64,000 bases of DNA from contig NC_016935.1 of NCBI RefSeq assembly GCF_000250655.1, forward strand, positions 4,110,001 to 4,174,000. Reading direction: 5' to 3'. This DNA comes from Paenibacillus mucilaginosus 3016. Its GTDB lineage: Bacteria; Bacillota; Bacilli; Paenibacillales; NBRC-103111. Below, in pieces: positions 35,998-63,372 of this stretch. Below the pieces are notes generated by a model. It saw nothing but the letters and a program-made list of their open reading frames with translations, made no database searches and was not told the DNA's origin. Position 1 is the stretch's first letter, and each line of letters begins with the position of its first letter. The position numbers were made by a program, and so were the translations under genes.

Positions 35998-38900
35998 CTA
36001 GCTTATTCTTTCTCCTGATTGATCATGAGGAACAGTAACGGTGGAAGATGCTTCCGTTACATTCCCTGCTTGATCGGTCGCTCTATAAGTAATCGTATAA
36101 ACTAGAGGCCCTTTACCCTTGGATTTTTTGGCGAGAAGCAAGAATTCCGTATCGAATGTGCTGAATTCGGCTTCTTGTACCATAGATTCATAGCTGTCGA
36201 CGGCAGCGCTCGGCGTAATGGACAGCAATTCCACTTGAGACAGCTCATTATCCGTTTCAATAGTTGCCGTTACTTTAACCAGCTTATTGTTGGCCGGCCA
36301 CAAGGTTTCCTTATCCAGGACAACTTTCAGGGTAGGAGCAGCCGTATCAATGACCAAGCTTCTGTACGCCCACTCCGACCAGGTGCCCCCATTGTCCTTC
36401 AAGCGAACCCTGATCGACCAATTTCCGTCCGCCAATCCATTCAAAGTGTATGAACCGGATGCGCCCGCCAGTTCGCCGCTGTCCACATCGACCGTCTCCC
36501 AACCGTTGCTGGAGGCTTGAACCTGATAAGCAGATTGAACATCCGCATCGTCGGCGTCATGGAACGTCCAGTTAAGCTGCAGATTGTTCAGATTGATCGC
36601 CTGGCCATCCTCATACGAGGTGATCGAGACGGATGGAGCCGAATTGCCGGCACCTGTGCCTGTAACGGTTGTGCCGTTCTTGGTCATTGTGTATGTGACT
36701 ACCTTGCCGCTCCAGAAGTGGAACGTCAGATTCACAACTCCGTCATTCGTATTCTGGAAGAAATTTGGCGTAAGCCTGATTCTTCCATTGGCGTAGTCAG
36801 GATTGTAGGAATCATAAATTTCCTTGTACGAAGTCCAATTATGCGGACCGGCATTGCCGCCATCAGCATATTTTGCCTCCATCGTAGCGACTCGATCGCC
36901 ATTGAAGGCTGTAGGAATATCAAAGCCTTGGGAGGTGATCGTGCCGGAAACGCTGGACAACGTCGCTGTATCATAATAATTAACGTACAACTTCCACGCA
37001 GGACCCGCGCTGAAATGGGCCGACAATACCGCCTTCTGGCCTAATGCGCCTGTAGCGAGACTTGAAAGATAGCTTGCTTTGAGCGTTAATACGTCCCCGT
37101 CCACCGTATAGTCTGTGCCGGGTACGAGCGTTTGATCGCCATTCTTCAGCGAGACAAAGCTGTTGCCGTTCAGGTTCAAGGTGACCGATTGGTCGCTGAC
37201 CGTCTCCCCGCTCTTGATGAAGATTCGATCGAAAGACGTCGTCGAAGTGCGGCCGGTCAAGCTATGCATAATAATATGATATAGCTCCGGGTCACTCCAC
37301 TCGAAAGTTGTCCGGTTAACGTACGGGCCGTAATCCCACATCATCGTCGCAATGCTCTTCGACTGCATGGCATGGAGGAAGTATTCGAAATACTTGAGCA
37401 TCTCGCCGCGCTCGACGGTTTCCTCACCCTTACCGTAACCGAGTATTCCGTATTCGCCTATGACAACAGGAATGCCTTTCGATACGAACGTATTATAGAC
37501 ATTGTTAACCGTTGTATCGATATCGTTTTTCACTTCGGCATTAAACGTTGTGTAGCCTGCGATGTTTACAGAGAAATGCCACAAGCCGTAAAAATGAACG
37601 GTAGTGATCAGATTCGGGTCGTTCAATTGTTCTATCGTGGCTGCAAGCGAATCCACATATTTTTGGCTGGCATTCGTCCACAGCGACGGCAAAACAAGCG
37701 GACGAACCCCATTATTGCCGCCGGACTCTCTTACAATGTTGAAGAAGGTCGTATTCAATTCATCGAGCAGCGACATTTGCGTTGTGTCTGCTAGGTTGTT
37801 GCCGAAAACCGGCTCATTGATGCTTTCGAACACCAGTTTGTTGGGATAATCCTTGAACGTGTTGGCGATTTGCTTCCAGACCGCCGTGTATTCGGCTACG
37901 ACCTGGTCATGGTTCGTGTCCATCGTGTTGACCCATTCCACCGAATCGTGGTGCATGTTGATCATGACGTGCAGGCCGGCTTCGAGCGACCAGTCGACAA
38001 TTTGCTGTACCCGGCTCATCCACGCCGGGTCAACCGTGTAGGATGGCGCAGGTCCCGTGTGCTGATACCAGGTCACGGGAATCCGGATGCTTTTGAAGCC
38101 CTGGGCGGCAATTTGTTCAATAAATGCTTGAGTGACAACCGGATTGCCCCAAGACGTTTCATCCGGGCCTCTTGCATCCAGGGAATTCCCCAGATTATAT
38201 CCCGGCTGCATCGCGTTGACATAGGACTGCATTGGCGTCTGCACCGTCGCACCCTCTTTAATATCGCCGCGCACGATGCCCATACCGTTCGTTCCGATAT
38301 AGACCCGGCCGTACACTTGCCCATCGCCCGTAATCGTTCCTCTTGCATTCGCGAATTGATGCTGTTCGTCGTTAATACGGATCCAGCTCGCCCCTTCATC
38401 CTCCGATCGGTAGAACCCGAACTTGCCGCCGTTCACTCTCATCCCGGCATAGATCGTTTTATACGTTTGGCCTGGCGCTTCTTTGCCGAAACCGACGGAT
38501 ACCGCCTCGTCGACGCCGCCTATCTTCCCGAAACTCGCTCCTGAATCCGTCGAACGGAATAGTCCTTCCTCGCTGGCAAGCCAAATATCGCCTTCGGCCG
38601 TAGGAGCAGCCTTGAATTTGCCATTCAGATTATTCGGCAGTCCGGAAGCCGCCGAAGCCGTGAAGTTGGCGCCGCCATCCGTGCTGACATAGAACTTCCC
38701 GTCAAGGAAACCGTAGAATTTGTCCGGATTGACGCGGTCCGAAGAGACGCTCGCGCCTTGCGGGATGCCTTTCGAGGCCGTCCACGTCTTGCCAAGGTCG
38801 GTAGAGAAGCTCACCGGCCGGACAGCGCTACCATCCGGATGCGGAGCCCATACGATCGTATGGCCGTTCGCGCCGACCGCGACCCATCCTCCGCTCGTGT

Positions 38901-40638
38901 TGTCGCCATTCTCCGCCTGCCAGGCATTGGTCGCCGGCGTCCAGGTGACGCCGTTGTCCGTCGATATGCCCATCCGCGCGTCTTGGTTCGATGCATGGCC
39001 GACCCGCACGATCAAATTCGAATTCGTCTCCGCGTAGTCCAGATCGGTGCTGGTTCCGATATAAGGATTCCTGATCATGCGCGGCGCCGTATTCAGGTCT
39101 TCGTGACGGAACCCTCCAATATCGCCCATCGCGCTAATCAACGGCGCCCCGGATGAAGGGCTAATCAAGCCGAGAACCGCGGTCTCTTCGATCCCGTCCG
39201 CCATGACGGAGATCCCGATTTTCTCGCCTTTGTCGAGATTGGTCACGTTCTCGGAGCCGAACAGCGTCGCCCCGGTACCGTACATGATCCGGTCGGAGTT
39301 GAACGGATCGATCTCCAGGTCGCCGATCATCCAACCCAGCTTCGGCGAGGTCTCCGGATCGGTCTCAGGATCGCGCTGAACGCCCCAGTCGAGCCATGGC
39401 GAGATGGAATAATCGATCGTGTACCGGTTGTCTCGCTTCGGATAGGAGCTGAACTGCCACAACGAATTCCATGTTTTCCCGCCGTCCGTACTGCGGTAAA
39501 TCGATTCCTCCGGCCACCATTTGTTCATCGTGGCGACCATCAGCGTATCCGGATGCTGAGCGTCGACGGCAAGACCGCCGTACGGATTGCTCGTATTGCC
39601 GGCTCCTTCCGGGCTGATGTCCGTCCACTCGCCCGTCTTCGTATCCAACTTCCATACTGCGCCATTGCCGCCGAGGTAGGGTCCGATCGTCGAGTTAAAC
39701 GATACGTACAGCATACCGTTGGAACCCAGCGTACCGTGGTGGGGCAGGAAGCCCTGTTTCGGCTGACCCGCTACCGGTTCCCAAGTAGCCCCGCCGTCGA
39801 CCGACTTGTAAATGCTCGTCTGGGTATCCGCCAAGCCGACATATATCGTCTGCGTCGCATGGCCTGCAGAGCCCGTCGAAGGATCGAAGGTGACCCATAC
39901 TGGGCCGACATTGCCGCCGTAGTCATCCTTTACATCGCCGACTGCAGTGAAGCTGCTCACCTTATGCCATGTCGCTCCGTAGTCCTCGCTCTTCCACAAT
40001 CCGTTCCCGTTGCGGGCTCCCAAGTAGAGGATCCGGTTATCGTTCGGGTCGACAACCAGACGTTCGCCCATGGAACGGCCGGGCATGTTGCCGCCGAATT
40101 TGAACGGCATTTCCGTCTTCTCCCACGTTTGCCCGCGATCCTGCGAACGGAGAATGTAACCGTTCGACTGCACCCAGTCGTTCGAGTAGGTGCCGGCAGC
40201 AATATAGACGCGATTCGGATCGACAGGGTCGGTAGCGATACTCTCTACGCCCGATAGGTTCCAGTCTTCTAAGCTCACCCATTCCAACAGCTGAATCCAC
40301 TTCTTCGTCGCGGGGTCCCAGCGATACGCGCCCCCCATATCCGTGCGGGCATAGATGAGATCCTTCTCCTTCGGGTTGTAAATAATGCCCGGAATGAATC
40401 CGCCTCCGACGATCTTCACCCTGCCCCAATCATAGGCTTGTGACTTCATTGGCACGATGTCCGACTGTACGGCCGCTGCTGCGCTTCCGGTCGAATCCGC
40501 CGCGAATGCCTTGTTAGGGAGCGTCAAGGCAGGGCCAATGCTTACCATTAACGCGGCGGTCGTCACCAGAATTGAAGCGGACTTACATAAGGAAATCATT
40601 TGTTTGGTGAATCCACGCGACGTTTTCCTTGTTTTCAT
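35998..40638 (-). CDS. Bifunctional xyloglucanase/endoglucanase: GH74-GH5-X2-CBM46-like-Fn3/Ig
   Basis: A 1546-residue secreted multimodular enzyme. The signal peptide ends near ANKAFA-A (about residue 48). The GH74 double beta-propeller spans about 60-795, with catalytic Asp in ARTDMGGAYRWD (about 100) and MGDIGGFRHED (about 505). The GH5 barrel spans about 805-1125, with proton donor Glu in FESINEPV (about 940) and nucleophile Glu in VIGEYGILG (about 1060). An X2/Ig-like module (about 1130-1220), a CBM46-like module (about 1225-1330), and two Fn3/Ig-like modules follow. The GH5-Ig-CBM46 order matches known GH5_4 xyloglucan-active enzymes. The ATG at 40638 follows AAGGAG; the longer frame lacks support. 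It would depolymerise xyloglucan outside the cell. Confidence 0.9.
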   Translation of the reverse strand: MKTRKTSRGFTKQMISLCKSASILVTTAALMVSIGPALTLPNKAFAADSTGSAAAAVQSDIVPMKSQAYDWGRVKIVGGGFIPGIIYNPKEKDLIYARTDMGGAYRWDPATKKWIQLLEWVSLEDWNLSGVESIATDPVDPNRVYIAAGTYSNDWVQSNGYILRSQDRGQTWEKTEMPFKFGGNMPGRSMGERLVVDPNDNRILYLGARNGNGLWKSEDYGATWHKVSSFTAVGDVKDDYGGNVGPVWVTFDPSTGSAGHATQTIYVGLADTQTSIYKSVDGGATWEPVAGQPKQGFLPHHGTLGSNGMLYVSFNSTIGPYLGGNGAVWKLDTKTGEWTDISPEGAGNTSNPYGGLAVDAQHPDTLMVATMNKWWPEESIYRSTDGGKTWNSLWQFSSYPKRDNRYTIDYSISPWLDWGVQRDPETDPETSPKLGWMIGDLEIDPFNSDRIMYGTGATLFGSENVTNLDKGEKIGISVMADGIEETAVLGLISPSSGAPLISAMGDIGGFRHEDLNTAPRMIRNPYIGTSTDLDYAETNSNLIVRVGHASNQDARMGISTDNGVTWTPATNAWQAENGDNTSGGWVAVGANGHTIVWAPHPDGSAVRPVSFSTDLGKTWTASKGIPQGASVSSDRVNPDKFYGFLDGKFYVSTDGGANFTASAASGLPNNLNGKFKAAPTAEGDIWLASEEGLFRSTDSGASFGKIGGVDEAVSVGFGKEAPGQTYKTIYAGMRVNGGKFGFYRSEDEGASWIRINDEQHQFANARGTITGDGQVYGRVYIGTNGMGIVRGDIKEGATVQTPMQSYVNAMQPGYNLGNSLDARGPDETSWGNPVVTQAFIEQIAAQGFKSIRIPVTWYQHTGPAPSYTVDPAWMSRVQQIVDWSLEAGLHVMINMHHDSVEWVNTMDTNHDQVVAEYTAVWKQIANTFKDYPNKLVFESINEPVFGNNLADTTQMSLLDELNTTFFNIVRESGGNNGVRPLVLPSLWTNASQKYVDSLAATIEQLNDPNLITTVHFYGLWHFSVNIAGYTTFNAEVKNDIDTTVNNVYNTFVSKGIPVVIGEYGILGYGKGEETVERGEMLKYFEYFLHAMQSKSIATMMWDYGPYVNRTTFEWSDPELYHIIMHSLTGRTSTTSFDRIFIKSGETVSDQSVTLNLNGNSFVSLKNGDQTLVPGTDYTVDGDVLTLKASYLSSLATGALGQKAVLSAHFSAGPAWKLYVNYYDTATLSSVSGTITSQGFDIPTAFNGDRVATMEAKYADGGNAGPHNWTSYKEIYDSYNPDYANGRIRLTPNFFQNTNDGVVNLTFHFWSGKVVTYTMTKNGTTVTGTGAGNSAPSVSITSYEDGQAINLNNLQLNWTFHDADDADVQSAYQVQASSNGWETVDVDSGELAGASGSYTLNGLADGNWSIRVRLKDNGGTWSEWAYRSLVIDTAAPTLKVVLDKETLWPANNKLVKVTATIETDNELSQVELLSITPSAAVDSYESMVQEAEFSTFDTEFLLLAKKSKGKGPLVYTITYRATDQAGNVTEASSTVTVPHDQSGERIS
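38261..39328 (-). repeat. Near-identical tract shared by the two GH74 genes (copy 1)
   Basis: These ~1068 bases match 61040-62107 (offset 22779) with, as far as I can read, one difference (39177, C versus T, giving Val versus Ile). Sequence on both sides drops to clearly lower identity. See the matching copy and the finding. Confidence 0.85.
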
Positions 40639-40709
40639 CAAGCGAATCTCCTTCTTCAATCGTTTTCTTCTTGCGATCATGCCACTTGCCCTTGTTGAAA
40701 GCCGATATA

Positions 40710-40723
40710 TGAGAGCGTTCTCA
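40710..40723 (-). promoter_or_regulatory. cre-like palindrome before the GH74-GH5 gene
   Basis: TGAGAGCGTTCTCA is nearly palindromic and resembles a LacI/CcpA-family operator, with one departure from the cre consensus. It lies about 72-85 bases upstream of the start. Confidence 0.45.
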
Positions 40724-40864
40724 GTTTTCGATAACCACTCCTCCTCATCCCACATCTTTCCTTGCATAACTACTTTATCAACAGGTTGAATCGCGAACCT
40801 TAATTTTTTGGACATGTATAGCACGATTTAGTCCGGTTAAATTTGGATTTTCTCGATAGAGACG

Positions 40865-58083: not shown

Positions 58084-59949
58084 CTACGTGCGAGAGAACT
58101 GGACGTTATTCATGTAGAACGTAGCTGGATTGGTAACACTGGTAACCGTAATTGTTTTCCATTTCGTGAAATTGACCCCAGTCATAGTGGCTAAAGGAAT
58201 AGAAACATGTTTCCATGAAGCATCGGAAGGCGTTTGTATGTTTACGGAATAACCATTCGTCCCATCGCTAACATACATGGAAAGCGTGACGCCTCCAGCT
58301 CCCGCTTTCACCCAAAAGTCTAACGTATTGTAAGCAGATACGTCATGTGAGGCCCAATCATTCGTATAAAAAGCCCCGTTCCAGCCGCTTCCTGCATAGA
58401 CAAACTTCTGTGAAGCGACACCGGTATTTCCGGGTACAACCGTAGCGTCCGTACTTGCTGTTAGGTTATTCGAATTGCTGTAATTTACAGCATATGGCTT
58501 ACGCTTCAATTCAAGTGACTTGGCACCAAAGGAGATCGTATAATTACCGCCTGCATCAGGTTGAATGACCTGACCATTTTGTACGACCTGATAACCATCC
58601 CCGTTCTTTAGCTTCACCTTTAGATTGATATTATTGGGGAAATAGGCTGGAACGTTCCAATTATAACTCGTTCCGGTTAAAGTCGCATTTGGTGTAAGGT
58701 TTTCGATTGTTTTCTGCGCTCTCCAGTAGCCGCTTACCGTCCCGTAGGGAGCGATCCAGATGCTGGATCGTTTGGTATCCAAATAGTTAATCAATGCATT
58801 CATCTGATCCAGCGGCAAGGAAGTAGCAGTACCACCAACATCATGTGCCGTAATTACTGTCCAGGCACCTTGGCTTATTGCATTATCTACCCAACTCTTG
58901 TAGTCCGTATTGAAGCTTCCCTCTTCCCATGTAAACCGGGAAGAGATATTCATCCAATCGGGGGTGTCTGATGGGTTCATATAGTAAGTTCCGTTACCCC
59001 AACCCCCTCTTGCTGAAAGGTGCGTATCTTTCAGGTATTTGACGAGATAGGGATCATTATTCGTGTAAGGATAGGCATAAGTTACAACTGGTGTGCCCAT
59101 CGCTTGTGCAATCTCTGTTTGAGCTGCGACAGTTTCATCATAGCCTAAAGTATCGTCATAAGTCCTTTGATAGGGTTGGGTTGGATTGGCACTTGGTTCA
59201 TAGTGATGTTTGGAATGGTTTCCAATTTCATGACCAGCCAAGGGGAGTTTTTTCCAATCCTCTTTTCGGCTACCCGTTATTGCCGTTTCCGTTATAAAAA
59301 ACGTAGCCTTCATGCCTTTTGCATTTAAAGCCGGGACCGCATAATCAAGCTGCGAATCAACACCATCATCAAAGGTAAGAGATACTGCTGATTGTGCTCC
59401 ATTCCAGGGCACGACTGTTATTTGTGGTCCAGTGTACGGATCTAGGTAGGAGAACTGAACGTTATTCATATAGAACGTCGTATTAACAGTACTCGTATTA
59501 CAGGTAAATGTAATTGATTTCCACTTAGTAAAATCAACCCCGGTCATAGCAGAGAAATCAATGGAGACGTGCTTCCAGGATGCATCGGAAGGCGTTTGTA
59601 TGTTTGCGGTATAACTATTCGTCCCATCGCTAATATTCATGGAAAGAGCTTCGCCGCCAGCTCCTCCTTTAACCCAAAAATCTAACGTATTGTAAGCAGA
59701 TACATCATGTGTGCCCCAATCCGTGTAAAACGCCCCGTTCCAGCCGCTCCCTGAAACAACAAATCTCTGGGAGGCAACACCGGTGCTTCCAGGTACAACG
59801 GTGGAATCATTACTTGCAGATAGATTATTACTACTACTGTAATTCACAACATAGGGGGCTGATGGTGCCGCCGATGCAGTCTGAGACACAATCGGTAATG
59901 GAGATATAAGAATGAAGAGAGCTATGAATAGTGAAAAAATTCTTTTCAT
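58084..59949 (-). CDS. Secreted polysaccharide deacetylase flanked by two copies of a carbohydrate-binding-like module
   Basis: A 621-residue exported enzyme. The signal peptide ends near TASAA (about residue 28). A beta-sandwich module (about 30-170) is followed by the NodB domain (about 180-400): SLTFDDGVDS, metal-binding HEIGNHSKHHYEP, PYTNNDPYL and a late TVITAHDVGG. A short beta-rich linker precedes a second copy of the same beta-sandwich (about 480-621). The two modules share long identical stretches (SGSGWNGAFYT, VSAYNTLDFWVK, YMNNVQFS). Esterases of this type deacetylate xylan or other acetylated polymers. Confidence 0.85.
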   Translation of the reverse strand: MKRIFSLFIALFILISPLPIVSQTASAAPSAPYVVNYSSSNNLSASNDSTVVPGSTGVASQRFVVSGSGWNGAFYTDWGTHDVSAYNTLDFWVKGGAGGEALSMNISDGTNSYTANIQTPSDASWKHVSIDFSAMTGVDFTKWKSITFTCNTSTVNTTFYMNNVQFSYLDPYTGPQITVVPWNGAQSAVSLTFDDGVDSQLDYAVPALNAKGMKATFFITETAITGSRKEDWKKLPLAGHEIGNHSKHHYEPSANPTQPYQRTYDDTLGYDETVAAQTEIAQAMGTPVVTYAYPYTNNDPYLVKYLKDTHLSARGGWGNGTYYMNPSDTPDWMNISSRFTWEEGSFNTDYKSWVDNAISQGAWTVITAHDVGGTATSLPLDQMNALINYLDTKRSSIWIAPYGTVSGYWRAQKTIENLTPNATLTGTSYNWNVPAYFPNNINLKVKLKNGDGYQVVQNGQVIQPDAGGNYTISFGAKSLELKRKPYAVNYSNSNNLTASTDATVVPGNTGVASQKFVYAGSGWNGAFYTNDWASHDVSAYNTLDFWVKAGAGGVTLSMYVSDGTNGYSVNIQTPSDASWKHVSIPLATMTGVNFTKWKTITVTSVTNPATFYMNNVQFSRT

Positions 59950-60030
59950 TCGATGTCATTCCTTTCGTTGTGCTGTAGTATACGTATTGAACTTATGTCC
60001 AGTCATACTAGCGAGAATGGAATTCACTCT

Positions 60031-60126
60031 TCACACGACGATGCGATTAATCAAGACGGCGGTTTCGGCCCGAGTGACCTTATCGAGAGGACGCGGCGTC
60101 AGTGTTGATTGACTGCTGTCCAAGGT
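60031..60126 (-). pseudogene. S-layer homology (SLH) domain remnant, in frame with the GH74 gene
   Basis: The minus strand reads TPRPLDKVTRAETAVLINRI then a stop; TRAE-x-A-x-x-x-x-R is the SLH domain hallmark. It lies downstream of the GH74 stop at 60172 and in the same frame, with two stops in between. A nearby GGGGCTGTCCCAAAG sequence resembles an insertion-sequence end. It appears to be the last part of SLH anchors once fused to the GH74 protein. Confidence 0.6.
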
Positions 60127-60171
60127 AGGTGAATTCTACTTTGGGACAGCCCCATCGTCTAAAAGGATGAC

Positions 60172-63100
60172 TTAGTTATACTTGACTGCGTACTTGCCGA
60201 GCTGCTTCGCTTTGAACTCGACATGGCCTGTTTTCGGATTGTACTTCGCATTTTTTATGATTTCCAGTTTTCCGTTATCGTTCAAATAATAGAGCGTAAC
60301 CCGGTTCGGTTTCTCTCCGTCCTTAAGCGTATAGCCGATCGCCACGCGGACGTCGTTGCCGTCGAATTTCGTCACCGGCTTCCCGGCAACTGTCAAGCTG
60401 AAGTCGAGCACCCTGCTGTCGCCCAGCTTGTTCCGCACGTCGCCTGGTAGCGTGCTTGCATCCACGATGCCGACTTGAACCGCAACGCTGGCCGTTGGCG
60501 ACGGACGGGTTCCGCGTACCAGCTTCGGATCAATCGAGACTACGGCAAGTCCGTTGTCGACCGCGATCGTTTTGACACCGCGGTCGTCCGCATAGGAAAG
60601 CGACTGGGCCGGCATTTCGACTATCACGGCTTTGACGTCTGCCAGCGGCTTCACCTCGGCGGTCACCTTCTTGTCCCGCGTCTGCTCAATCGCGTTCCGC
60701 ACGATGTCCCCGCCTAAGGATACGGATGCCGTTCCCACGGCGTTCACGGTCGGCTCGGCATGGATCTTGCCGTTGCTCTGCGTAATTGCCGGCATGACGG
60801 TGACCACCGCCGTGGCGGCATATTGGCCGTCAGCGCTAACAGCGGCGATCGCTGCCGTCCCCGGCTTCAGTCCGGTTATCTGGTCTCCCGAGATGCTCGC
60901 AACGGATGCGTCGCTCGATGACCAGACGACCGGACGGCTGGATGCGCCGCCGTCGAATACCGGAGCCAGTGCAGCCGATTTGCCGGCCTCAACCGTCAAA
61001 TCGTTCACATGGAACCCCCGCACCGCCGCATCCTGTTTCATATCGCCGCGCACGATGCCCATACCGTTCGTTCCGATATAGACCCGGCCGTACACTTGCC
61101 CATCGCCCGTAATCGTTCCTCTTGCATTCGCGAATTGATGCTGTTCGTCGTTAATACGGATCCAGCTCGCCCCTTCATCCTCCGATCGGTAGAACCCGAA
61201 CTTGCCGCCGTTCACTCTCATCCCGGCATAGATCGTTTTATACGTTTGGCCTGGCGCTTCTTTGCCGAAACCGACGGATACCGCCTCGTCGACGCCGCCT
61301 ATCTTCCCGAAACTCGCTCCTGAATCCGTCGAACGGAATAGTCCTTCCTCGCTGGCAAGCCAAATATCGCCTTCGGCCGTAGGAGCAGCCTTGAATTTGC
61401 CATTCAGATTATTCGGCAGTCCGGAAGCCGCCGAAGCCGTGAAGTTGGCGCCGCCATCCGTGCTGACATAGAACTTCCCGTCAAGGAAACCGTAGAATTT
61501 GTCCGGATTGACGCGGTCCGAAGAGACGCTCGCGCCTTGCGGGATGCCTTTCGAGGCCGTCCACGTCTTGCCAAGGTCGGTAGAGAAGCTCACCGGCCGG
61601 ACAGCGCTACCATCCGGATGCGGAGCCCATACGATCGTATGGCCGTTCGCGCCGACCGCGACCCATCCTCCGCTCGTGTTGTCGCCATTCTCCGCCTGCC
61701 AGGCATTGGTCGCCGGCGTCCAGGTGACGCCGTTGTCCGTCGATATGCCCATCCGCGCGTCTTGGTTCGATGCATGGCCGACCCGCACGATCAAATTCGA
61801 ATTCGTCTCCGCGTAGTCCAGATCGGTGCTGGTTCCGATATAAGGATTCCTGATCATGCGCGGCGCCGTATTCAGGTCTTCGTGACGGAACCCTCCAATA
61901 TCGCCCATCGCGCTAATCAACGGCGCCCCGGATGAAGGGCTAATCAAGCCGAGAATCGCGGTCTCTTCGATCCCGTCCGCCATGACGGAGATCCCGATTT
62001 TCTCGCCTTTGTCGAGATTGGTCACGTTCTCGGAGCCGAACAGCGTCGCCCCGGTACCGTACATGATCCGGTCGGAGTTGAACGGATCGATCTCCAGGTC
62101 GCCGATCCCCCAGCCAAGCGTTGGCGAGGTTACCGGATCGGTCTCCGGATCGCGCTGAATGCCCCAATCGAGCCATGGCGAGATCGAATAATCGATCGTG
62201 TACCGGTTGTCGCGCTTCGGATACGAGGTGAACTCCCAAAATGGTTTCCATGTTTGTCCGCCGTCCGTACTGCGGTAAATCTGGTTATCCGGCCACCATT
62301 TGTTCAACGTCGTAACCATCAGCGTATCGGGATGCTGAGCGTCGACGGCAAGACCGCCGTACGGATTGCTGGTGTCGCCGGCTCCGCCCGGACTGATGTC
62401 CGACCACTCGCCCGTCTTCGTATCCAGCTTCCATACCGAACCGCTGCCGGCGGTGAACGGTCCGATCTCCGAGTTGTACGTTACGTACAGCATACCGTTG
62501 GAACCCAGCGTTGCGTGGTGGGGCAGGAATCCCTGCTTCGGCTGGCCCGCCACCGGTTCCCAGGTAGCCCCGCCGTCGACCGACTTGTAAATGCTCGTCT
62601 GCCTGTCCGCCAAGCCGACATAAATCGTCTGCGTCGCATGGCCTGCGGAGCCCGTTGAAGGATCGAAGGTGATCCATACAGGGCCGACTTTGCCGCCGTA
62701 ACCATCCTCGACGTCGCCGACTGCAGTGAAGCTGCTCACCTTATGCCATGTCGCTCCATAGTCCTCGCTCTTCCACAACCCGTTGCCGTTGCGGGCTCCC
62801 AAATAGAGGATCCGGTTATCGTTGGGGTCGACAGCCAGTCGTTCGCCCATGGTCCGGCCGGGCATGTTGCCGCCGAATTTGCACGGCATTTCCGTCTTCT
62901 CCCACGTTTGCCCCCGGTCCTTCGAACGAAGAATGTAACCGTTCGATTGCACCCAATCGTTCGAGTAGGTGCCGGCCGCAATGTAGACGCGGTTCGGATC
63001 GACAGGGTCGGAAGCCAGACTCTCCACGCCCGACAGGTTCCAGTCTTCCATGTTCAGCCACTCCAGCAGCTGAATCCACGTCTTGGTCGCCGGGTCCCAG

Positions 63101-63372
63101 CGATAGGCGCCCCCCATGTCCGTACGGGCATAGATGAGATCTTTCTCCGTCGGGCTATAAATGATGCCCGTAATGAGTCCGCCCCCGACGATCTTCACCC
63201 TGCCCCAATCATAGGCTTGCGTTTTCACTGGCACGATGTCCGACTGTACAGCTTCGCTTCCGATCGATTCCGCTGCGAATGCCTTGCCGGGAATCGTTGT
63301 CAACGAAGAGCCCGTGCTTGCCGTCAACGCGGCGGCCGTCAGCACAGCCAGCCACTTATTCTTTTTTTTCAT
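60172..63372 (-). CDS. GH74 xyloglucanase with Ig-like (Big_2) domain, apparently lost S-layer anchor
   Basis: A 1066-residue secreted enzyme. The signal peptide ends near AFAAE (about residue 32). The GH74 propellers span about 40-780, with catalytic Asp in ARTDMGGAYRWD (about 85) and MGDIGGFRHED (about 490). A Big_2 domain (WSSSDASVASISGDQITGL) follows at about 800-870, and a C-terminal beta-rich domain ends GKYAVKYN. In other Paenibacillus surface enzymes this domain leads into SLH repeats; here a stop occurs instead. The start at 63372 follows GGAG 13 bases upstream. About 1.07 kb is near-identical to the other GH74 gene. Confidence 0.88.
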   Translation of the reverse strand: MKKKNKWLAVLTAAALTASTGSSLTTIPGKAFAAESIGSEAVQSDIVPVKTQAYDWGRVKIVGGGLITGIIYSPTEKDLIYARTDMGGAYRWDPATKTWIQLLEWLNMEDWNLSGVESLASDPVDPNRVYIAAGTYSNDWVQSNGYILRSKDRGQTWEKTEMPCKFGGNMPGRTMGERLAVDPNDNRILYLGARNGNGLWKSEDYGATWHKVSSFTAVGDVEDGYGGKVGPVWITFDPSTGSAGHATQTIYVGLADRQTSIYKSVDGGATWEPVAGQPKQGFLPHHATLGSNGMLYVTYNSEIGPFTAGSGSVWKLDTKTGEWSDISPGGAGDTSNPYGGLAVDAQHPDTLMVTTLNKWWPDNQIYRSTDGGQTWKPFWEFTSYPKRDNRYTIDYSISPWLDWGIQRDPETDPVTSPTLGWGIGDLEIDPFNSDRIMYGTGATLFGSENVTNLDKGEKIGISVMADGIEETAILGLISPSSGAPLISAMGDIGGFRHEDLNTAPRMIRNPYIGTSTDLDYAETNSNLIVRVGHASNQDARMGISTDNGVTWTPATNAWQAENGDNTSGGWVAVGANGHTIVWAPHPDGSAVRPVSFSTDLGKTWTASKGIPQGASVSSDRVNPDKFYGFLDGKFYVSTDGGANFTASAASGLPNNLNGKFKAAPTAEGDIWLASEEGLFRSTDSGASFGKIGGVDEAVSVGFGKEAPGQTYKTIYAGMRVNGGKFGFYRSEDEGASWIRINDEQHQFANARGTITGDGQVYGRVYIGTNGMGIVRGDMKQDAAVRGFHVNDLTVEAGKSAALAPVFDGGASSRPVVWSSSDASVASISGDQITGLKPGTAAIAAVSADGQYAATAVVTVMPAITQSNGKIHAEPTVNAVGTASVSLGGDIVRNAIEQTRDKKVTAEVKPLADVKAVIVEMPAQSLSYADDRGVKTIAVDNGLAVVSIDPKLVRGTRPSPTASVAVQVGIVDASTLPGDVRNKLGDSRVLDFSLTVAGKPVTKFDGNDVRVAIGYTLKDGEKPNRVTLYYLNDNGKLEIIKNAKYNPKTGHVEFKAKQLGKYAVKYN
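61040..62107 (-). repeat. Near-identical tract shared by the two GH74 genes (copy 2)
   Basis: Matches 38261-39328 with one visible difference at 61956. Flanking GH74 sequence is only about 85-90% identical by eye, so the tract stands out as recently homogenised. Confidence 0.85.

Follow-up and report, generated by a model that had tools for sequence, protein, structure and literature searches.

The window analysed here, a 64,000-nucleotide stretch of Paenibacillus mucilaginosus 3016 (contig NC_016935.1, positions 4,110,001 to 4,174,000), carries on its minus strand a predicted GH74 xyloglucanase gene (63372..60172) that encodes a protein of 1066 amino acids and ends at a natural TAA stop. Behind this stop, on the same strand, lie a hairpin (60115..60153), a remnant of the C-terminal part of an SLH repeat (approximately 60031..60099) that is not part of the GH74 gene, and a gene for a CE4 polysaccharide deacetylase (58084..59949) preceded by its 5′ leader (59950..60015). 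The GH74 protein begins with a signal-peptide-like N-terminus, and its catalytic part (approximately residues 50-782) matched PDB 2cn2 over the full length when searched with phmmer against PDB chains (E 7.3e-247). A catalytic Asp pair and cleavage of xyloglucan are the expected marks of a GH74 xyloglucanase. A Pfam scan of the 1066-residue protein detected BNR/Sortilin repeats and a Big_2 domain (approximately 810-857) and found no SLH domain, so that the protein does not class as an SLH-anchored surface protein. The whole catalytic part (residues 50-782) is alike in the GH74 endo-xyloglucanases 2cn2/2cn3 and 6mgj, to which the window protein adds, after the catalytic part, Big_2 and an SLH-adjacent tail. 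The product is best explained as a xyloglucanase that is predicted to be exported and that has the SLH-adjacent domain at its C-terminus but no SLH repeats. The window also holds a second GH74 (GH74-GH5-CBM46; 35998-40824) that shares 91% identity with the first across residues 10-785, a value similar to that of the Paenibacillus caseinilyticus orthologue (90%), suggesting a recent duplication or gene conversion between the two.

The tail (60172..60792, minus strand) ends at residue 1066, where most of its homologues go on into SLH repeats, and it has matches in many proteins other than GH74 enzymes. The 20 top-ranked tail-only matches were taken by rank, with the GH74 of Paenibacillus sp. P25 itself skipped; in 19 of the 20, a set that is not 20 independent cases because several come from one genome or are orthologue-like, the tail runs straight into an SLH region of approximately 180 residues, whereas the remaining protein (L150) is truncated. 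A Pfam scan of ten of the SLH-bearing homologues showed three SLH stretches in each. The GH74 protein stops 1-2 residues before the conserved start of SLH in these homologues. Thus, the initial annotation correctly described a protein that ends in GKYAVKYN and rightly placed this end at the point where related proteins continue into SLH. The closest architectural counterparts are tail/3xSLH proteins of Paenibacillales (L131-L149, some with Big_2), whose tails are 32-41% identical and end at the same boundary; they have three SLH repeats, whereas the window GH74 has none. Because the GH74 protein stops precisely where SLH would begin in its tail family, both descent from an SLH-bearing protein and free secretion at present are reasonable inferences: a clade ancestor may have borne SLH repeats, and the enzyme itself is likely to be secreted freely into the medium.

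It had been proposed that the switch from a cell-bound to a secreted form was recent. Tail matches at E<=1e-50 were confined to four of the 392 genomes of the order, namely that of the window, G016, G012 and G318, which all belong to this clade, and three other full-length GH74 proteins with the tail were recovered, from Paenibacillus caseinilyticus (L032, the same genome as G016; 90% identity to the window GH74), Cohnella sp. CFH 77786 (L033; 87%) and Paenibacillus sp. P25 (L039, the same genome as G012; 82%). The locus L194 (G318) has the same sequence as L033 at this place. In the deposited P25 assembly, frameshifts break up the gene (L039 6001-9200). All three relatives stop at the same residue as the window protein (KYN or KYS followed by the stop) with no SLH behind. 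Since three relatives from two genera share an end without SLH, the anchorless form did not arise recently in this genome, and the proposal of a recent switch is largely refuted. Among the 42 GH74-matching open reading frames in the fetched loci, a count that includes the window's own, duplicates and fragments, one carries SLH: the protein of G128 (L006), whose GH74 catalytic domain is 63% identical to that of the window (residues 6-801) and is soon followed by an SLH-type C-terminus, without the tail of the window GH74.

The hairpin 3′ of the GH74 stop has arms GGGGCTGTCCC and GG-ACAGC. The initial annotation had taken GGGGCTGTCCCAAAG (60153-60139), which forms one of its arms and has its partner approximately 20 nt further on, for the scar of an insertion sequence. 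As an exact 15-mer, GGGGCTGTCCCAAAG has one copy in the window and one in the 8.74-Mb genome, and no direct repeat was found in 59900-60400. The scar was rejected on these three grounds (a single copy, pairing with a nearby arm and no direct repeat in that interval), and nothing ties GGGGCTGTCCCAAAG to an insertion sequence here. The same stem-loop is present in all four species, those of the window, L032, L033 and L039 (z -2.6 to -4.65), with two-sided compensatory changes at 0 of 15 pairs; the window copy is somewhat decayed, bulged and lacks a T run. The same hairpin also stands after an unrelated gene in L192.

A 14-mer, GGGGYTGTCCCAAA, was found in 86 of the 147 genomes searched, while its reversed control gave one match in all of them. 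It is strongly enriched in Paenibacillales (L159-L188), and a single genome, G079, holds 32 copies. Of 30 inspected loci with GGGGYTGTCCCAAA, 11 gave a folding energy of -19 kcal/mol or lower across 52 nt; T runs accompany several loci (e.g. L159 and L174). At three of the 30 an inverted partner lies 146-150 nt away, so that a few copies in other places may mark the termini of mobile elements. Judged by its sequence, the hairpin belongs to a terminator-like type common in Paenibacillales, and it may terminate transcription of the GH74 gene. A hairpin of this type can resemble the end of an insertion sequence, which calls for caution.

Reading on in frame past the GH74 stop gives KYN, a stop (TAA), VILLDDGAVPK, a second stop (TAG), NSPTLDSSQSTLTPRPLDKVTRAETAVLINRIVV and a third stop (TGA). 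The SLH C-terminal scrap DKVTRAETAVLINRI therefore lies in the GH74 frame beyond two stops, and the remnant as a whole reads LTPRPLDKVTRAETAVLINRIVV up to its own stop; the earlier report of an SLH piece in this frame thus holds, at approximately 60099-60031. Its matches to SLH proteins mark the scrap as genuine SLH code: a protein search at E<=1 returned many weak SLH matches, spread over 110 of 147 genomes with the window's own included, and the best non-self match had an E-value of 0.006. Pfam matched the 34-residue downstream piece, which is too short, to 0 families. At the DNA level no convincing match was found in its own genome or in 25 genomes of the genus, where a match in G016 reached 74% over 53 nt with E 0.12. 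Compared with 19 SLH3 ends linked to the tail the scrap scored 28-48; five further SLH sequences, chosen as its best matches and therefore favoured by the comparison, gave 63-69. Its PLDKVTRAETAV subtype is unlike the RAQAA/RAEAA ends of tail-linked SLH3.

The hexamers that follow the stop in the different species (VILLDD, VILIDV and GILLDD) were also considered as a trace of SLH1 (VSFxD). When scored against VSFxD, they were equalled by 21, 1 and 83, respectively, of the in-frame post-stop hexamers of 538 other open reading frames. The trace was rejected as weak because GAC GAT forms part of the hairpin unit GACGATGGGGCTGTCCC, the one that recurs after the unrelated gene in L192.

The neighbouring CE4 protein (Polysacc_deac_1) also has CBM30/CBM11-like modules, and its 5′ leader is common to CE4 homologues in other genomes. 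At E<=1e-60, homologues occur in three of 104 genomes of the family and six of 392 of the order; full-length copies are 87-95% identical across genera and stand in differing upstream contexts, a combination that suggests horizontal movement of the gene. In G074, which belongs to another genus, TCACTCGGGCCGAAACCGC lies 22 nt before the CE4 start and matches the scrap's core letter for letter; here, within the 1.5 kb that was read, the gene upstream of CE4 is not a GH74. The 19-mer core (60077-60059) occurs exactly at two places in 147 genomes, the window and G074, both just upstream of CE4. Copies with one or two mismatches exist, and 10 of the 18 that were read look like SLH reading frames, so some similarity to the core is expected from SLH coding alone. 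The scrap is missing from G016, which has the GH74-CE4 order of the window, and from the CE4 loci of G340 and G201; two genomes and 19 nt are thus the basis for linking scrap and CE4. Upstream of the CE4 leader, the window, G016 and G074 each have a different filler, whereas those of G340 and G201 resemble each other. The initial annotation had treated the downstream piece as the GH74 protein's own and had asked whether it might belong to another gene: the CE4-linked core, exact in two of 147 genomes, and a subtype unlike tail-linked SLH3 ends argue that it does, while the three genomes with CE4 and no scrap argue the other way. The scrap most likely came in with the CE4 segment, as far as its sequence context indicates. 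In general, a domain fragment that is read in frame past a stop may be part of an adjacent gene. As a separate observation, a reading frame near the 3′ side of CE4 in L190 joins, in translation, an SLH-like motif to a rhodanese-like stretch.

We consider it probable that the locus combines an old anchorless GH74 clade, a terminator-like hairpin and a scrap tied to CE4 rather than to GH74. According to this account, the GH74 gene is intact and ends where expected, and the anchorless form, common to all members of the clade found, is older than the divergence of its host species or than the spread of the gene among them. The stop is followed by a terminator-like hairpin of the type common in Paenibacillales, and the SLH scrap would have arrived with, or been left beside, the mobile-looking CE4 gene and would not be the lost anchor of GH74. 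Several observations pull against this account: the scrap lies in the GH74 frame on the 3′ side, as the protein's own SLH remnant would; CE4 occurs without the scrap in G016 (there behind GH74), G340 and G201; the five comparison sequences were picked as best matches; and the window hairpin is bulged, has no T run and shows 0/15 compensatory pairs. Scrap and hairpin give no evidence of a recent SLH loss, and the anchorless state is old and fairly ordinary, not a recent change in this bacterium. A literature search at abstract level, too little to claim absence from print, returned nothing on this locus.

The alternatives differ in when, and whether, SLH was lost. A recent loss in this genome driven by an insertion sequence, of which a scar and the final portion of SLH would remain, fits a tail ending at the SLH boundary, an SLH end in frame downstream and a 14-mer that is repeated in the order with mobile-element-like inverted partners at 3 of 30 loci; it is very improbable, given that three relatives in two genera share both end and hairpin, that the motif is single-copy and folds with a nearby arm, and that the scrap, which is linked to CE4, represents a different SLH subtype. 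An old SLH loss in a shared ancestor is plausible. One version of it, in which a stop and hairpin replaced most of the SLH of a GH74-tail-SLH ancestor, the scrap survives as a relic in the window alone, and CE4 with 19 nt later moved to G074, draws on the SLH of 19 of 20 tail homologues and on the matching frame and order. We judge this version unlikely: hairpin and SLH-less end also occur at loci without scrap and without CE4, the PLDKVTRAETAV subtype differs from the RAQAA/RAEAA ends, and VILLDD, which lines up with VSFxD, includes a GACGAT that is part of a hairpin unit also seen after an unrelated gene (L192). The GH74 may instead have gained its tail by fusion and never had SLH, a history that departs from the preferred account in the ancestral state only and that we hold to be a serious possibility at somewhat under even chances; SLH in 1 of 42 GH74-matching frames (duplicates and fragments included), in a protein lacking the tail, speaks for it, but the tail almost always precedes SLH (19/20). 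That the protein stops precisely at this domain boundary is compatible with either history. A fuller scenario, in which a single old loss of SLH was followed by retention of the tail under selection for another role and by spread of the anchorless gene through Paenibacillus and Cohnella, is offered tentatively and seems rather doubtful.

Pairwise dN/dS of the tail, computed for the window against L032 and L033 with L039 left out (frameshifted in the P25 assembly), was 0.32 and 0.30, respectively; the catalytic part gave 0.35 and 0.26 in these comparisons. Purifying selection thus acts on the tail about as it does on the catalytic part, indicating that the anchorless GH74 protein is maintained. 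If selection keeps an SLH-adjacent domain in the absence of SLH, the domain may have a role of its own, such as substrate or wall binding or spacing.
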